From the IMG/VR virus record IMGVR_UViG_3300046467_001851, positions 1 to 22,366 of that record: a DNA stretch of 22,366 nt, one strand, 5' to 3'. The stretch's first letter is position 1. Every line of letters starts with the position of its first letter. This document shows positions 5,704-17,505 of the stretch, piece after piece. The notes beneath the pieces are model-generated. The model did no database searches, was not told where the DNA came from, and was given only the letters and a program-made list of their open reading frames with translations. The position numbers and the translations under genes were made by a program. This DNA comes from a virus.

Positions 5704-6903
5704 ATGCGAGACTGGCAGAGAATTCACAGTGAAGCGACCATTGTTGACCTGCATACTCACCCGACGCTGAAGATATCCCTCTTCAAAAGAAACCTGGCTA
5801 AACGATTCCGGCAGGGCCTGAAGGGATTCTGGCCGATGTCGACCAGATCGGGGTTTCAGATGCTCGAGCAGGGCGAATATGACGTATCCCTGTCTACGGT
5901 ATACATGCCTGAAGCTGGCATGCTCAAAGATCTGCCCATCATCCACCTACTGAGATTCCTGCGGCCATTCGCCTGGTACAGGACTTTCGGGAAGAAATCC
6001 TACTTCAAAGGCGCTGTCTGGTGCCTGGATCAGATCGAGAAGCAGGCAAAGTCATACAAGGGCAAAAGACCGGTTGTTATCTCTCGCAGCCCGGCCGAAC
6101 TGGAGACAGATCTACTCAATAATGCGATATGTATCGTCCATAGCATCGAAGGGGCTCACAACCTGCAGGACAAATGCGGCAAGATACCAGCAGAGATAAC
6201 CCCTGAAATCGAAGAGGAGATACTGTCTAGCCTCGAGTACATGTCAAAACGGGGTGTCGCATACCTCGGATTGTCGCATTTCTACCAGAACTACTGCTCC
6301 CCTTCAGTATTCCCGTACCCAGATTATGCACTGAAACTATCAAAATGGCGTAATCTCGTGCAGAGGTGGGACGAAAACAAGGGACTCACCTCCCTAGGAG
6401 AAAAAGTAGTACTGCGTGCCAGAGAGCTTGGCATGCTTATCGACGTCACACACTGCACCCAAATGGCCCGTCGAGAAGTCTACGGCATGTGCCAATCAGG
6501 AATCATTGCTTCCCACGTCGGATCCTATGAGCTGAACCCGTCCACACTGAACCTGGAAGACTGGGAAATTGAGACAATAGCCCGTAAAGGCGGGGTAATA
6601 GGCGTGATTCCCATGACGTACTGGCTACTTGGCTATGGCAAGGGGCTCGGCCTGGACGCAATGAGCCAGACCATCCGGCACATCATCAGTGTGGGCGGAG
6701 AAGAGTGTGTGGGCATAGGCACTGACCTGGACGGCCTGACAGACCCAATTGACGAGATAACAGACGCTTCAGGGCTGTCCCAGCTGACCAGACGCCTGTG
6801 TGCAGAGACATTTGCGCGTGGAACGCGATATACCGACGAAACTATCCGAAAGATCCTTGGAGGGAACGCCTTGCGGGTCTTGACGGAGCAGTGGAAGGCA
6901 TGA
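5704..6903 (+). CDS. M19 family membrane dipeptidase homologue
   Basis: A 399-residue protein starting MRDWQRIHSE, with SD GAGG upstream. Motifs of the M19 (renal or membrane dipeptidase) TIM-barrel metalloprotease family appear in order: VDLHTHP with H17 and H19, IEGAH with the bridging E149, LSHFYQN (H192), LIDVTH (H250), ASHVGS (H271), GIGTDLDG, and a closing KILGGNALRV. Family members bind two zinc ions and hydrolyse dipeptides, some with a D-residue. The canonical first pair HxD is HxH here, a variant also found in some bacterial members as far as I recall. No signal peptide is seen, so a cytoplasmic role is likely. The stop overlaps the next gene (ATGA). The gene is unusual cargo for a phage. 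Confidence 0.87.
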   Translation: MRDWQRIHSEATIVDLHTHPTLKISLFKRNLAKRFRQGLKGFWPMSTRSGFQMLEQGEYDVSLSTVYMPEAGMLKDLPIIHLLRFLRPFAWYRTFGKKSYFKGAVWCLDQIEKQAKSYKGKRPVVISRSPAELETDLLNNAICIVHSIEGAHNLQDKCGKIPAEITPEIEEEILSSLEYMSKRGVAYLGLSHFYQNYCSPSVFPYPDYALKLSKWRNLVQRWDENKGLTSLGEKVVLRARELGMLIDVTHCTQMARREVYGMCQSGIIASHVGSYELNPSTLNLEDWEIETIARKGGVIGVIPMTYWLLGYGKGLGLDAMSQTIRHIISVGGEECVGIGTDLDGLTDPIDEITDASGLSQLTRRLCAETFARGTRYTDETIRKILGGNALRVLTEQWKA

Positions 6904-7205: not shown

Positions 7206-7240
7206 GATGACCATGCAAAGGCCAAACAAGGCCGTTACAT
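7206..7240. repeat. Imperfect 35-bp direct repeat, copy 1
   Basis: This segment, with core GCAAAGGCCAAA, matches 8382-8416 at 28 of 35 positions. The two copies bracket the PP-loop/membrane-protein operon. This copy contains the stop codon of the PP-loop gene (7235-7237) and has a short GGCC/GGCC inverted repeat followed by TTT on the minus strand. Confidence 0.65.
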
Positions 7241-8071
7241 CCCACACATCCCCTGACATTCCTCGGTTAGGCCGCTTTCAAAGAGCAATTTCTGGCCTTT
7301 ATCAACATCCGTGCGGAAATCTATCTCATCTAATGGTTTCCGGGCAGCATGCAAATAGATATCACCACGCATGCCCCCACATTTTCTCACGGCCCTATCG
7401 AAATCCGCCGCCTCCTGAAACTCTTCTGGAGACTCATTTTTGAGATATCGCCATTCCTCATTGTTGTGAAATGGGCAGCCAATGCAGGCACTTCTCGGTG
7501 CCCGAGGGAAATCGTGCTGTTCCAGCCAGTTGAGGCAGCCCTGTCTCGTCATACCCATGTCTACGAGCGGATAATAATGCTCACACCACTTATGGTTCGA
7601 TGTCCGCATCCTGGTGAATTCGTCATGCGATATACCAAACCACTGTCGTACAGTTAGCTCTTTCGGAGCCCGCTGACGATGCTTCAGGCCGAGAATCTTG
7701 CGTCGTGTCCACTTTTCAATGGGCCGGATCTTGTATTCATAAGTGCATTGCCGGCGGATCATGCCCTTCTCACCATTCGGCCCGAGAACAAAGTACGGCA
7801 TTGCAGCCCAACGATTACCATCCTCCGCCTTGCCCCGTACCTGGCTGACCAAAGCATCGTTCTTGATATTGCTCGTGCTGACCACGTCAATTGGTATGTC
7901 ATGCTTACCAGCAAAATCAATCAACCACTCTAACTGGGCATACACCGCCTTTGGCTCCCAGCCAGTGTCCGCGAAGACACAAGCATCCAATTTGGGCAGC
8001 TCGCCTACACACGACATCAATAGAACCGTGGATGACTGTACACCAGCCCCCAATGACAGAATATTCTTCAT
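7235..8071 (-). CDS. PP-loop ATPase of the PAPS-reductase-like superfamily
   Basis: A 278-residue protein starting MKNILSLGAGVQSSTVLLM, with SD GGAGG 9 bases upstream. S6-L-G-A-G-V-Q-S-S14 is a PP-loop, the ATP-pyrophosphatase signature of the adenine nucleotide alpha-hydrolase fold. ACVFADTGWEP at about 30-40 is typical of phage and defence-island relatives annotated as phosphoadenosine phosphosulfate reductase. Cysteines C109, C163, C179 and the pair C196-I-G-C199 could bind metal or an iron-sulfur cluster. The ECGLH active-site motif of true CysH is absent, so assimilatory sulfate reduction is unlikely; nucleotide or nucleic-acid modification is a better guess. The start overlaps the upstream gene (ATGA). 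Confidence 0.8.
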   Translation of the reverse strand: MKNILSLGAGVQSSTVLLMSCVGELPKLDACVFADTGWEPKAVYAQLEWLIDFAGKHDIPIDVVSTSNIKNDALVSQVRGKAEDGNRWAAMPYFVLGPNGEKGMIRRQCTYEYKIRPIEKWTRRKILGLKHRQRAPKELTVRQWFGISHDEFTRMRTSNHKWCEHYYPLVDMGMTRQGCLNWLEQHDFPRAPRSACIGCPFHNNEEWRYLKNESPEEFQEAADFDRAVRKCGGMRGDIYLHAARKPLDEIDFRTDVDKGQKLLFESGLTEECQGMCGM

Positions 8072-8785: not shown

Positions 8786-9127
8786 ATGGACATTTATAGA
8801 CAAGCTACGCTTGACGGCATTCGCGACCTATGCGGGATGGAACCGTTATCGGAATATGAGCAACAGCGTTTATCCGATGATCGGTTAGAGGAAGAGCGCT
8901 TTGCGTCTTACTACGCTCCGGCATGGGTTGCCGGTTCGCATTGGACCCCGCGCAAGTATGCGGCGCGTTGTCACAACATCATGACATCGCGCGAATCGCA
9001 AGGATCCTTTGCCGATGTCACCTATCACGTCGGATTGTGCAACTTGCATGATGGATTGGATCTATCCCCTTACCAATGTGAATCTGTTGCGCTGTTTATC
9101 CTCGAGCTAATTGAAAAGGGAGTGTAG
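8786..9127 (+). CDS. Hypothetical protein upstream of the gp88-like gene
   Basis: A 113-residue protein starting MDIYRQATLDGIRDLCG, with SD GGAG 9 bases before ATG. It is mostly helical and rich in charged and aromatic residues (EYEQQRLSDDRLEEERFASYY, WTPRKYAARCHNIM), ending LFILELIEKGV. No family is recognised. It lies 4 bp before the gp88-like gene, so the two form one unit. Base use (frequent CGCG, CGC/CGT arginine codons) resembles that gene and differs from the genes at either side. Confidence 0.65.
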   Translation: MDIYRQATLDGIRDLCGMEPLSEYEQQRLSDDRLEEERFASYYAPAWVAGSHWTPRKYAARCHNIMTSRESQGSFADVTYHVGLCNLHDGLDLSPYQCESVALFILELIEKGV

Positions 9128-9131
9128 AACC

Positions 9132-10031
9132 ATGACGTTTAAAATCACATGCGCGTACTCGCACGATGTCGACGGGTTCCCCGTTTTGGATGTTACAGTT
9201 ACCGACAAGCACGGAACCGTAACCTTACCCGTGCATTGCAAGACGCTTCTAACTACAGAGAATCCGAAGACGCGCAAGGGAGAAGCGCAGGGTTATCTAA
9301 CGCAAGGCTTACCGATGTCACCGCATAAGACATCGGGTGCGGGTAACGCATGCCCGAAGGCTACGCCGACGTGTATCGACAATTGTCTTGACGTTCAAGG
9401 CATCGGTTCTATCTTCAAGCGTATTCACGCGTACCGCGCGGCTAAGACTTGGTTGTACTACAACCGTCGCGAGTTGTTCTATGACATCCTTATAAAGGAC
9501 ATCGAACGGGGAGCGCGGAAAGCGGCGCGTGATAACGTCAAGCTTGCCGTGCGCCTCAATGTGTTTTCGGACATCGCTCATGAGCGTACCCGCGCGGGGA
9601 TTCGATTCCTGGAATTACTCCCGCGCGAATGTCAGATATACGATTACACGAAACTAGACGAACGGTTCGACAACATGAACCGCCTCGAGGAATTCGGGTA
9701 TCACTTGACGTTCTCGCACGGTGAGAATCGCGAACCGATTAGCGCCGCGATTCTAAGGCGGGGATTTAATGTTGCGGTTGTTTTCAATCACGACAATGTC
9801 AACTTTCCTTCGCATTGGTTAGGCGCACCCGTGATTAGCGGGGATGATAGTGACCTGCGCTTTCTCGACCCGTCAAGACGCGTCCCCGCATCCGTGCGCG
9901 GTCTATCATGCAAGGGTGGTTATGTAATCGGGTTGCGTATGAAGTATGCCACACTCGAGTCTGCCCGGGATATGATCAATAACCGGTTTGCGGTAACTGT
10001 GCCCGGTTGTGCGCCATTGGTTGACGCCTAA
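9132..10031 (+). CDS. Gp88-like phage protein
   Basis: The ATG at 9132 follows GGGAG with good spacing and gives 299 residues starting MTFKITCAYSHDVDG. The order of conserved pieces matches the phage Gene product 88 family as I know it: a Cys segment with PMSPHKTSGAGNACPKATPTC and NCLD, then AYRAAKTWLYY, KLAVRLNVFSDIAHE, CQIYDYTKLDERFD, YHLTFSHGENRE, NVAVVFNHDN, PVISGDDSDLRFLDPS and a final SCKGGYVIGL. The biochemical role of this family is not established to my knowledge. The cysteines may bind metal. Codon use is CGCG-rich, unlike neighbouring genes, suggesting transfer together with the gene before it. Confidence 0.75.
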   Translation: MTFKITCAYSHDVDGFPVLDVTVTDKHGTVTLPVHCKTLLTTENPKTRKGEAQGYLTQGLPMSPHKTSGAGNACPKATPTCIDNCLDVQGIGSIFKRIHAYRAAKTWLYYNRRELFYDILIKDIERGARKAARDNVKLAVRLNVFSDIAHERTRAGIRFLELLPRECQIYDYTKLDERFDNMNRLEEFGYHLTFSHGENREPISAAILRRGFNVAVVFNHDNVNFPSHWLGAPVISGDDSDLRFLDPSRRVPASVRGLSCKGGYVIGLRMKYATLESARDMINNRFAVTVPGCAPLVDA

Positions 10032-15856: not shown

Positions 15857-16102
15857 ATGATGACCCAAGACTTCCTCACAGTAACCCAGGCAGCCGACCG
15901 AATCGGCATCACGACTGGCCGCCTGCGACAGATGCTCAGGGCGAATGAAATAGAAGGCGTGAAGATGGGGCCTCGCATGTGGTTGCTCGCTGTCGATGAA
16001 GTTGACAAGCTGAAACAACCGCAGCGACGTGGCCGGCCGAGAGGAAACAACGGCCCTTACATGGAGAACAGGGATGTTAATACTGAGCAGAAAATTGGAT
16101 GA
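15857..16102 (+). CDS. Helix-turn-helix DNA-binding protein (excisionase/MerR-like)
   Basis: An 81-residue protein starting [20 protein letters not shown], directly after the preceding stop, with AAAGG upstream. [47 protein letters not shown] is a typical winged HTH of the excisionase, AlpA or MerR type: a helix-turn-helix, then a wing ([11 protein letters not shown]) and a final helix. The basic tail [13 protein letters not shown] contains an AT-hook-like GRPRG. It may act with the serine recombinase as a directionality factor, or as a transcription regulator. Its end overlaps csrA by 29 bases. Confidence 0.8.
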
Positions 16103-16271
16103 GGTCATCACCATTGGTGACGACGTCGAAGTCAAGATCGTGAGAATCTCAAAGGACGTAGTGAAGCTCGGGATCGCCGCCCCAAAAAATGTCGCCGTGC
16201 ATCGAAAAGAAATTGCTCGAAGGATCGAGGAGAAGCTGCACCGCAATGATAATGACGAACGTGACAAGTGA
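16074..16271 (+). CDS. csrA: CsrA/RsmA-type RNA-binding regulator
   Basis: A 65-residue protein starting [20 protein letters not shown], with SD GGAGAA. It aligns along its whole length with CsrA: the first strand MLILSRK (L4 and R6 kept), [28 protein letters not shown] with R44 (VHR) and the C-terminal helix ARRIEEKL. L4 and R44 are key RNA contacts in the family. CsrA dimers bind GGA-containing sites, often over ribosome-binding sites, and alter translation or stability. A phage copy could act on phage leaders (four share AGGAGTGCA) or reset host regulation. The gene overlaps its HTH neighbour and the alpha-CTD-like gene, so the three are probably co-expressed. Confidence 0.92.
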
Positions 16272-16608
16272 ATTTGGATTCACTCGCCAGGAAGCGGGGG
16301 TCTTAGGATTCAGAATCGCAACCCACCTGATGGATGGAAACTTCGACGCTGCTCACCACGTTTTGGTGATGGCAGAGTTTTCAAAGCAGACGATCCCGCT
16401 CGCGCCCCTGCACACGATGCCTATTGCGCAGGCAAATGTAAGCACCAGAACGATCAACCTGCTAGAGCAAAACGGCGTTATGACCTTTGGAGATTTGGCT
16501 GGCAAGGGGGAAGAATGGATCCTCGCCCTTCATAACGGTGGACCTGGCACTCTCGCTGAGATCAGGACGGTCATCATGGCAGAGCTAGACAAGAGGAAAA
16601 ACGGATGA
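16252..16608 (+). CDS. RNA polymerase alpha-CTD-like protein
   Basis: A 118-residue protein from ATG 16252 ([16 protein letters not shown]); another ATG lies at 16246. Residues about 50-110 match the alpha subunit C-terminal domain: [38 protein letters not shown]. Aligned to E. coli RpoA, R66, N69, N95, G97 and E103 correspond to R265, N268, N294, G296 and E302, and T100 to S299; K298 is Gly. These residues contact UP-element DNA and activators. The N-terminal 45 residues are helical and unrecognised; the assembly domain of RpoA is absent. It may bind DNA or regulators in competition with host polymerase, or serve as a helix-hairpin-helix DNA-binding protein. It overlaps csrA. Confidence 0.75.
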
Positions 16609-16898
16609 AACCGAAGGGCACGATATACCTTATGGTCGATGATGACGACGTGATCCAGCAGACGTTTGTCATTCGCACAGGACAACACCTTCATGCATAT
16701 ACCTACACGCCAGATCAGCACGACGAAATGCTGGAAAGGATAAAGGATCACGGATTGCGGGATGATTACCCACTTAAACCTGAGATTGCAACGCAGATTC
16801 TAACAGCCATGGAACGATTCCATCAGGAACCACATGGCAGTCCAAACCTATGGAGAGAAAACCCAAATGGCTACCAAGACGATCACGAACAATTCTAA
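16605..16898 (+). CDS. Hypothetical protein
   Basis: A 97-residue protein starting [20 protein letters not shown], in an ATGA overlap with the alpha-CTD-like gene. The first part is strand-rich (TIYLMVDDDDVIQQTFVIRTGQ), the second helical (TPDQHDEMLERIKDHGL, EIATQILTAMERF), with a polar end, NPNGYQDDHEQF. No conserved motif is recognised. The 3' end overlaps the start of the annealing protein gene in another frame. Confidence 0.6.
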   Translation: MKPKGTIYLMVDDDDVIQQTFVIRTGQHLHAYTYTPDQHDEMLERIKDHGLRDDYPLKPEIATQILTAMERFHQEPHGSPNLWRENPNGYQDDHEQF

Positions 16899-17505
16899 CA
16901 TGCAGCTCTGGGAGTCGGTCTGCGTGACCGACCCGAACATCGCCAGGCACGTCGGCCAGCGAGGCGGCTTCACTGCCATCTGTGCCCAGTCCCAGCTGAA
17001 ACAGGCCACGCAACTCTGGGGTCCATATGGCGAGCGGTGGGGCGTCCGAAGCCTGGATTATGAATACCTGCATGACAACGATGCACTCACGGAACTTACT
17101 CTTACTGCTGAGTTCTACTACCCCTCGCCGACGACTGACGAGGAGGTCGCTTTCGTAATGTCGGACGACCTCGTGTACCGAGCGGGCGGCGAGTGCCGCA
17201 AGAAAATCCTCACCTCTCTCCGTAGCAAGATGCTCTCGAGTCTCGGTATGAACTCCGATGTATTCGAGGGAGACTTCGAGGACTCGCATCGCTGGGAAGA
17301 CAACCGCTACGTGAACGTGAACGAAGACATGTTCCAGCGGGCGAACGCTGCAATTGAAGAGGCGGATAACATGGAGCGGCTCGACAAGATCCGTGCCCAC
17401 ATGGAAATGGAAGACTTCACCGCAGCACAGATGGCTATCCTCAAGCGGGGATGTACTCGCCGCGCCAAATCGCTTCAGGCAGAAACAGAGCCGGCGAATG
17501 TCTAG
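16867..17505 (+). CDS. Rad52-like single-strand annealing protein (putative)
   Basis: From ATG 16867 the product has 212 residues starting MATKTITNNSNMQLWESVC; an in-frame ATG at 16834 is also possible. The pattern W-x-x-V-x-x-T-D-P, a GGF-TAI segment, QATQLWGPYGERWGV, a strand-rich middle, and a helix with AGGECRKKILTSLRSKMLSSLGMNSDVFEGDFED resembles phage recombination proteins of the Rad52/Sak3-like superfamily, in which a Lys-rich helix is followed by a short LG--ADVF-G-FDD-type motif. These anneal complementary strands together with SSB. The assignment comes from recalled pattern, not a search. SSB, helicase and RusA in the same operon support it. Confidence 0.55.
   Translation: MATKTITNNSNMQLWESVCVTDPNIARHVGQRGGFTAICAQSQLKQATQLWGPYGERWGVRSLDYEYLHDNDALTELTLTAEFYYPSPTTDEEVAFVMSDDLVYRAGGECRKKILTSLRSKMLSSLGMNSDVFEGDFEDSHRWEDNRYVNVNEDMFQRANAAIEEADNMERLDKIRAHMEMEDFTAAQMAILKRGCTRRAKSLQAETEPANV

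Follow-up and report, generated by a model that had tools for sequence, protein, structure and literature searches.

A stand-alone RNA polymerase alpha-CTD protein encoded beside csrA suggests that a phage may steer host transcription

The RNA polymerase alpha-CTD binds A/T-rich sequences known as UP elements (PMC4390567), and its Arg265, which is crucial for the use of both UP elements and activators, is the residue modified by the T4 protein Alt (PMC2988021). Phage alpha-CTD proteins are already known as a class from annotation: examples come from Mycobacterium phage Mithril, Rhodococcus phage Finch, Bacillus phage Goe8 (gp005), Microbacterium phage Mazun (gp26), Ruegeria phage V16 and uncultured Caudovirales (entries of 131–135 aa), and BFVD includes proteins that already bear the alpha-CTD name. 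No function test of such a protein was found in the open literature, subscription papers lying mostly outside the search. The family described here, in which an N-terminal helical hairpin precedes the alpha-CTD and the gene is linked to csrA, appears undescribed.

The stretch of DNA analyzed (the window), an IMG/VR virus record, spans 22,366 bases and is assigned to a phage because it carries genes for a major head protein, a single-strand binding protein, a serine resolvase, RusA and a helicase (Pfam/PHROG matches). Five overlapping genes, encoding HTH, CsrA, alpha-CTD, short ORF and exonuclease-like proteins, form a chain on the + strand (15857-17505), in which each start lies inside the end of the preceding gene (Table 1). 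The 3′ end of csrA shares 20 bases with the alpha-CTD gene, whose translation could equally well begin at an in-frame ATG at 16246. The HTH protein scores 25.3 bits against PF12728, slightly below the cut-off of 27. Elsewhere in the window, the M19 dipeptidase gene is full-length and possibly a host-derived metabolic gene; the Pfam list for a 58-kb relative (G022) does not include it. As a route to the host, the dipeptidase was searched in about 250 genomes from each of the two phyla to which capsid matches pointed (below), without a match at E 1e-60, a threshold that is probably too strict.

Table 1 Positions of the overlapping gene chain, of the two parts of the alpha-CTD protein and of other genes in the window.
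Feature	Position	Strand	Evidence
Small helix-turn-helix (HTH_17/excisionase-like) protein, overlaps csrA	15857..16102	+	PF12728, PHROG excisionase matches
CsrA-like RNA-binding regulator	16074..16271	+	PF02599 (E 5.5e-20; 71.5 bits, cut-off 27); NCBIfam csrA above cut-off
Stand-alone alpha-CTD protein, 118 aa	16252..16608	+	ORF/translation; PF03118; AF2 superposition; 14 further distinct phage homologs
Predicted family-specific N-terminal helical hairpin (helices at residues 12-27 and 31-47)	16252..16401	+	AF2 model; homolog conservation
alpha-CTD domain, about residues 52-112	16405..16587	+	Pfam match to residues 53-107; PDB superposition of residues 51-112
Short protein, overlaps alpha-CTD stop codon	16605..16898	+	ORF list
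Phage recombination-type protein	16834..17505	+	phrog_7838 ('exonuclease'), E 5e-18
M19 membrane dipeptidase, between structural-arm genes and early region	5704-6903	+	PF01244, E 3.8e-49
Phosphoadenosine-phosphosulfate-reductase-like protein	7235-8071	-	phrog_424, E 3e-46; no Pfam match at E<=0.01
GP88 domain protein	9111-10031	+	PF17338, E 1.9e-26; PHROG of unknown function

The earlier note on this DNA had aligned the C-terminal half of the 118-aa protein with the RpoA alpha-CTD and seen no RpoA N-terminal domain (NTD), and both observations hold. PF03118 (RNA_pol_A_CTD) is matched at 26.1 bits (cut-off 23.8; E 7e-6), and a Pfam scan at E≤1 returned no other family and no helix-hairpin-helix (HhH) family. 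RpoA proteins are the best PDB sequence matches, headed by that of B. subtilis (E 7.4e-5). NCBIfam rpoA models align by their C-terminal part only (TIGR02027, 229–287), and residues 1–52 give no meaningful RpoA profile match, so that this is a small phage-encoded ORF with an alpha-CTD and without an NTD. A 15-row family profile, built from 13 phage and two provirus proteins, gives E 9e-12 against RpoA and E 1.7e-13 against cellular TPR-alpha-CTD proteins. Since the profile reaches RpoA at this level, and since purifying selection acts on the phage homologs, which are conserved and syntenic, the match is not due to chance. The C-terminal part is a true RNA polymerase alpha-CTD domain.

An AlphaFold2 (AF2) model built with the 15-row family alignment (mean pLDDT 82.7, pTM 0.69) consists of two N-terminal helices followed by the alpha-CTD helices, with pLDDT values of 81–90 in the N-terminal part past residue 10. 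The best PDB superposition is with a cyanobacterial alpha-CTD (9dvt_A; Z 11.3, 1.0 Å over 62 residues), E. coli alpha-CTDs give Z of about 9–10.4, and the top structural rows are all alpha-CTDs; the best unrelated fold is the HhH domain of a RAD51 paralog (Z 8.5, 10% identity). Foldseek against the PDB gave a best E of only 0.012, with probabilities of about 1; the weak E-values are explained by the shortness of the domain, and the sequence evidence agrees. Superposition of a predicted structure on the alpha-CTD was one of the checks proposed in the earlier note, and it returned the alpha-CTD fold; neither of the refuting outcomes named there, a different fold or a better match to generic HhH proteins, was seen. 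A generic HhH domain as the primary identity was rejected, PF03118 being the sole family matched and the RAD51-paralog domain ranking below the alpha-CTDs.

The N-terminal part has no Pfam match above cut-off, and no TPR was found in residues 1–55. Two candidate identities were rejected: the end of the RpoA NTD (hhalign E 0.25), and a TPR unit, raised by a GxFxAA pattern (hhalign E 0.08 over 19 columns, no Pfam TPR). A first alignment with B. subtilis RpoA and some Pseudomonadota RpoA matches extended across this part. Residues 1–50 are here treated, on the basis of the model, as a new small family-specific helical hairpin, with a likely role in dimerization or partner binding. The region is conserved together with the alpha-CTD in phage and provirus homologs.

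When the 118-aa protein was searched as a single sequence, IMG/VR yielded no relative and INPHARED no significant match, and a helicase-based search found none; relatives were reached via the capsid protein (80 loci) and then with family profiles. PF03118 matched in seven of 50 capsid-related records, with scores of up to 38 bits (three of the seven below cut-off). All six records >50 kb with a capsid protein sharing at least 73% identity with that of the window carry the gene, and the PF03118 search found none in 40–82 kb records of a more distant capsid group (about 46%). Further loci came from profile and pair searches, for a total of 15 distinct phage proteins including that of the window. 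These are uncultured genomes, mostly fragments, and gene absence in short records carries little weight. Capsid matches in genomes comprised a 3-kb contig binned as Gammaproteobacteria (80%) and an 11-kb contig binned as Planctomycetia (43%).

Gene order in the relatives is constant: HTH, CsrA, alpha-CTD, often a short ORF (as in L083, L085 and L087), then recombination genes. In the 58-kb relative the last group includes a DUF3799 PDDEXK nuclease, ERF, a ResIII/DEAD helicase and RusA, and the nuclease and ERF are found in relatives at the position of the exonuclease-like gene of the window. Ten pairs share at least 75% identity and have a finite dS, and among these dN/dS is 0.055–0.163 in nine and 0.26 in the tenth, which has very few changes; between the window and its nearest relatives (46–47% identity) it is 0.31–0.33, with dS near saturation. 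The low dN/dS and the conserved, constant position indicate that the alpha-CTD ORF is a real, selected gene.

The main rival to a regulatory role, which we nevertheless consider unlikely, is that the alpha-CTD fold serves as an HhH domain in a DNA-binding accessory of the recombination/replication module, aiding the nuclease, the ERF annealing protein or the helicase. The DUF3799 nuclease, ERF and helicase genes downstream in the relative and the exonuclease-like gene in the window fit this idea, as do the kinship of the alpha-CTD fold with HhH domains (the RAD51-paralog hit) and the alteration of positions 264, 269 and 294 (E. coli numbering; below). However, the profile is specifically that of the alpha-CTD, without any HhH Pfam match, the upstream CsrA and HTH proteins are regulators and the gene overlaps csrA, and versions of the protein in Planctomycetota proviruses adjoin a GNAT-ATPase fusion rather than recombination genes.

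Of the 13 records that carry the alpha-CTD gene, nine encode CsrA directly upstream. In every one of the nine loci with csrA that were examined, the alpha-CTD ORF overlaps the 3′ end of csrA, with some uncertainty over exact start codons. Such adjacency and overlap would be expected if the two proteins formed a complex, the alpha-CTD anchoring CsrA near the transcription of phage or host genes and so coupling transcriptional and mRNA control, but the other four records keep the alpha-CTD with no detectable CsrA, from which it follows that the alpha-CTD protein can work without it; we regard this arrangement as very improbable.

For the residues that bind UP elements, the earlier note had listed R265, N268, N294, G296 and E302 as kept and S299 as replaced by Thr, which is exact for the window protein (R66, N69, N95, G97, E103 and T100, respectively). 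K298 (G99), C269 (Leu) and V264 (Thr) are also changed. Besides R265, we take N268, N294, G296, K298, S299 and E302 to be DNA contacts in E. coli; five of this set of seven are kept in the window, with S299T and K298G as the exceptions. Across the 15 distinct phage proteins the claim stands in part. Position 265 is R in 11 and K in four, N268 and G296 are invariant, S/T299 is found in 13 and K298 in 10. However, N294 is kept in the window protein only and lost in the other 14 (M in eight, G in six), E302 is kept in six and changed in nine, C269 is replaced in all 15, and 10 have an acidic residue at position 264. In the comparison set, N294 and E302 are retained by RpoA and by the cellular TPR-alpha-CTD proteins (one RpoA row, L140, was a spurious ORF and was ignored). 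The phage family thus conserves the core minor-groove contacts R/K265, N268, G296 and S/T299; the center of the DNA-contact surface is kept and its rim is not. With an acidic residue often beside R265 and N294 mostly lost, the affinity of the family for UP elements may be altered, and the changes at positions 294, 302, 269 and 264 mean that DNA affinity in general may be weak or different. The family also constitutes a natural variant set (R/K at 265, acid/Thr at 264, M/G/N at 294, E/L at 302), useful for asking what an alpha-CTD needs for action outside the polymerase.

Position 261 is acidic in 14 of the 15 proteins, and net charge is near neutral, which is atypical for a free DNA-binding protein. 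Together with the changed DNA face (acidic 264, no N294) and a hairpin that could add a binding surface, these features would suit a protein decoy or antagonist that ties up host activators or sigma region 4 and blocks activated transcription without binding promoter DNA. Against such a decoy, which seems improbable, the DNA contacts N268, G296 and R/K265 are the most constant positions of all, and the sigma-contact patch is altered at positions 258/259 (A and Q/L).

The ORFs scanned in the 58-kb relative show no RNA polymerase among their 25 top Pfam families, so the polymerase used is probably that of the host. The locus suggests that the virus may steer host transcription with a stand-alone alpha-CTD protein. 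Our preferred reading, held tentatively and at a little less than an even chance, is a phage regulator in which a free alpha-CTD acts at some promoters or activators and is co-produced with CsrA. The hairpin-alpha-CTD protein would probably be translated together with CsrA from the overlapping genes, its alpha-CTD part most likely still binding DNA via R/K265, N268, G296 and S/T299 and its hairpin perhaps binding a partner protein or another copy of the protein. It would sit on A/T-rich upstream sequences or on activators, where the detached alpha-CTD would compete with, or replace, that of the host at a subset of promoters, with CsrA acting in parallel on mRNA. Counted against the regulator are the changes at positions 294, 302, 269 and 264, Gly in place of K298 in the window, the near-neutral charge, Gln265 in provirus versions and the recombination genes on the 3′ side. 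A two-layer takeover cassette, in which the overlapping genes supply CsrA as an mRNA regulator together with a free alpha-CTD, which would take the place of that of the host at promoters or compete with it, redirecting transcription by copy and not by modification, is doubtful. If the regulator reading is true, phages would use a polymerase domain, produced free of the enzyme, to control promoter choice, a simple route distinct from ADP-ribosylation or cleavage of alpha, and it would be clear why alpha-CTD modules recur in unrelated phages, joined each time to another N-terminal part.

Outside the phage group, a family profile search of 392 Planctomycetota genomes matched mostly RpoA and TPR-plus-alpha-CTD proteins of about 450 aa. 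Among the matches listed, two Planctomycetota loci encode the full hairpin-alpha-CTD in a short ORF, both near terminase-like genes, and two IMG/VR viral records carry the same provirus type. In all four (L162, L163, L180 and L181) the alpha-CTD gene lies 3′ of one encoding a protein with an ATP-binding loop and a GNAT acetyltransferase domain, and in L162 a Pfam-confirmed terminase is nearby. Extra alpha-CTDs outside RpoA, one or two per protein, are common in Planctomycetota in proteins of about 440–530 aa (L128, L135–L139, L147, L156, L160 and L161; TPR repeats Pfam-confirmed in L128), a candidate class of cellular regulators on which a literature search found nothing. Eight loci came from scanning viral contigs with a generic alpha-CTD search: six small phage alpha-CTD proteins, one short partial match, and L189, which was rejected because it instead resembles the HhH of a DNA-repair polymerase. 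In viral contigs L182–L187, proteins of 140–145 aa join an alpha-CTD to other N-terminal parts, and five of these share the N-terminal part GGxAFPSADNPGMSLRDYFA. The distant provirus versions, and the modules of other phages in which the alpha-CTD follows a different N-terminus, show that the alpha-CTD has been recruited repeatedly.

Among the closest known systems, the Planctomycetota provirus proteins (124 aa) share both hairpin and alpha-CTD, the family profile spanning both parts, but they lie in another phage backbone with a GNAT-ATPase neighbor and without adjacent CsrA, and two of them (L162 and L163) have Gln at position 265. The alpha-CTD of RpoA itself (PF03118; E. coli RpoA 249–329) has the same fold (Z 9–11, mostly 1.0–1.7 Å) and recognizable sequence, with R/K265, N268, G296 and S/T299 kept in the phage family and N294, C269 and often E302 and V264 changed; without the NTD, the known route of polymerase assembly is impossible for the phage protein, which has a new N-terminal hairpin instead. 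The cellular Planctomycetota proteins with tandem alpha-CTDs (L128 and relatives) likewise carry an alpha-CTD detached from RpoA, but are far longer (about 450 aa), with two alpha-CTDs and true TPR repeats that the phage hairpin does not resemble. The annotated phage proteins also combine an alpha-CTD with an unrelated extra part, although in Goe8, Mazun and V16 only the alpha-CTD domain matches, and this is more RpoA-like, with N294 kept. T4 Alt and ModA, which ADP-ribosylate alpha Arg265, interfere with the same alpha-CTD function, and the contrast drawn in the earlier note with T4-type takeover is fair as an analogy and goes no further (PMC2988021): T4 modifies host alpha enzymatically, whereas the phage family would supply a copy of the alpha-CTD.
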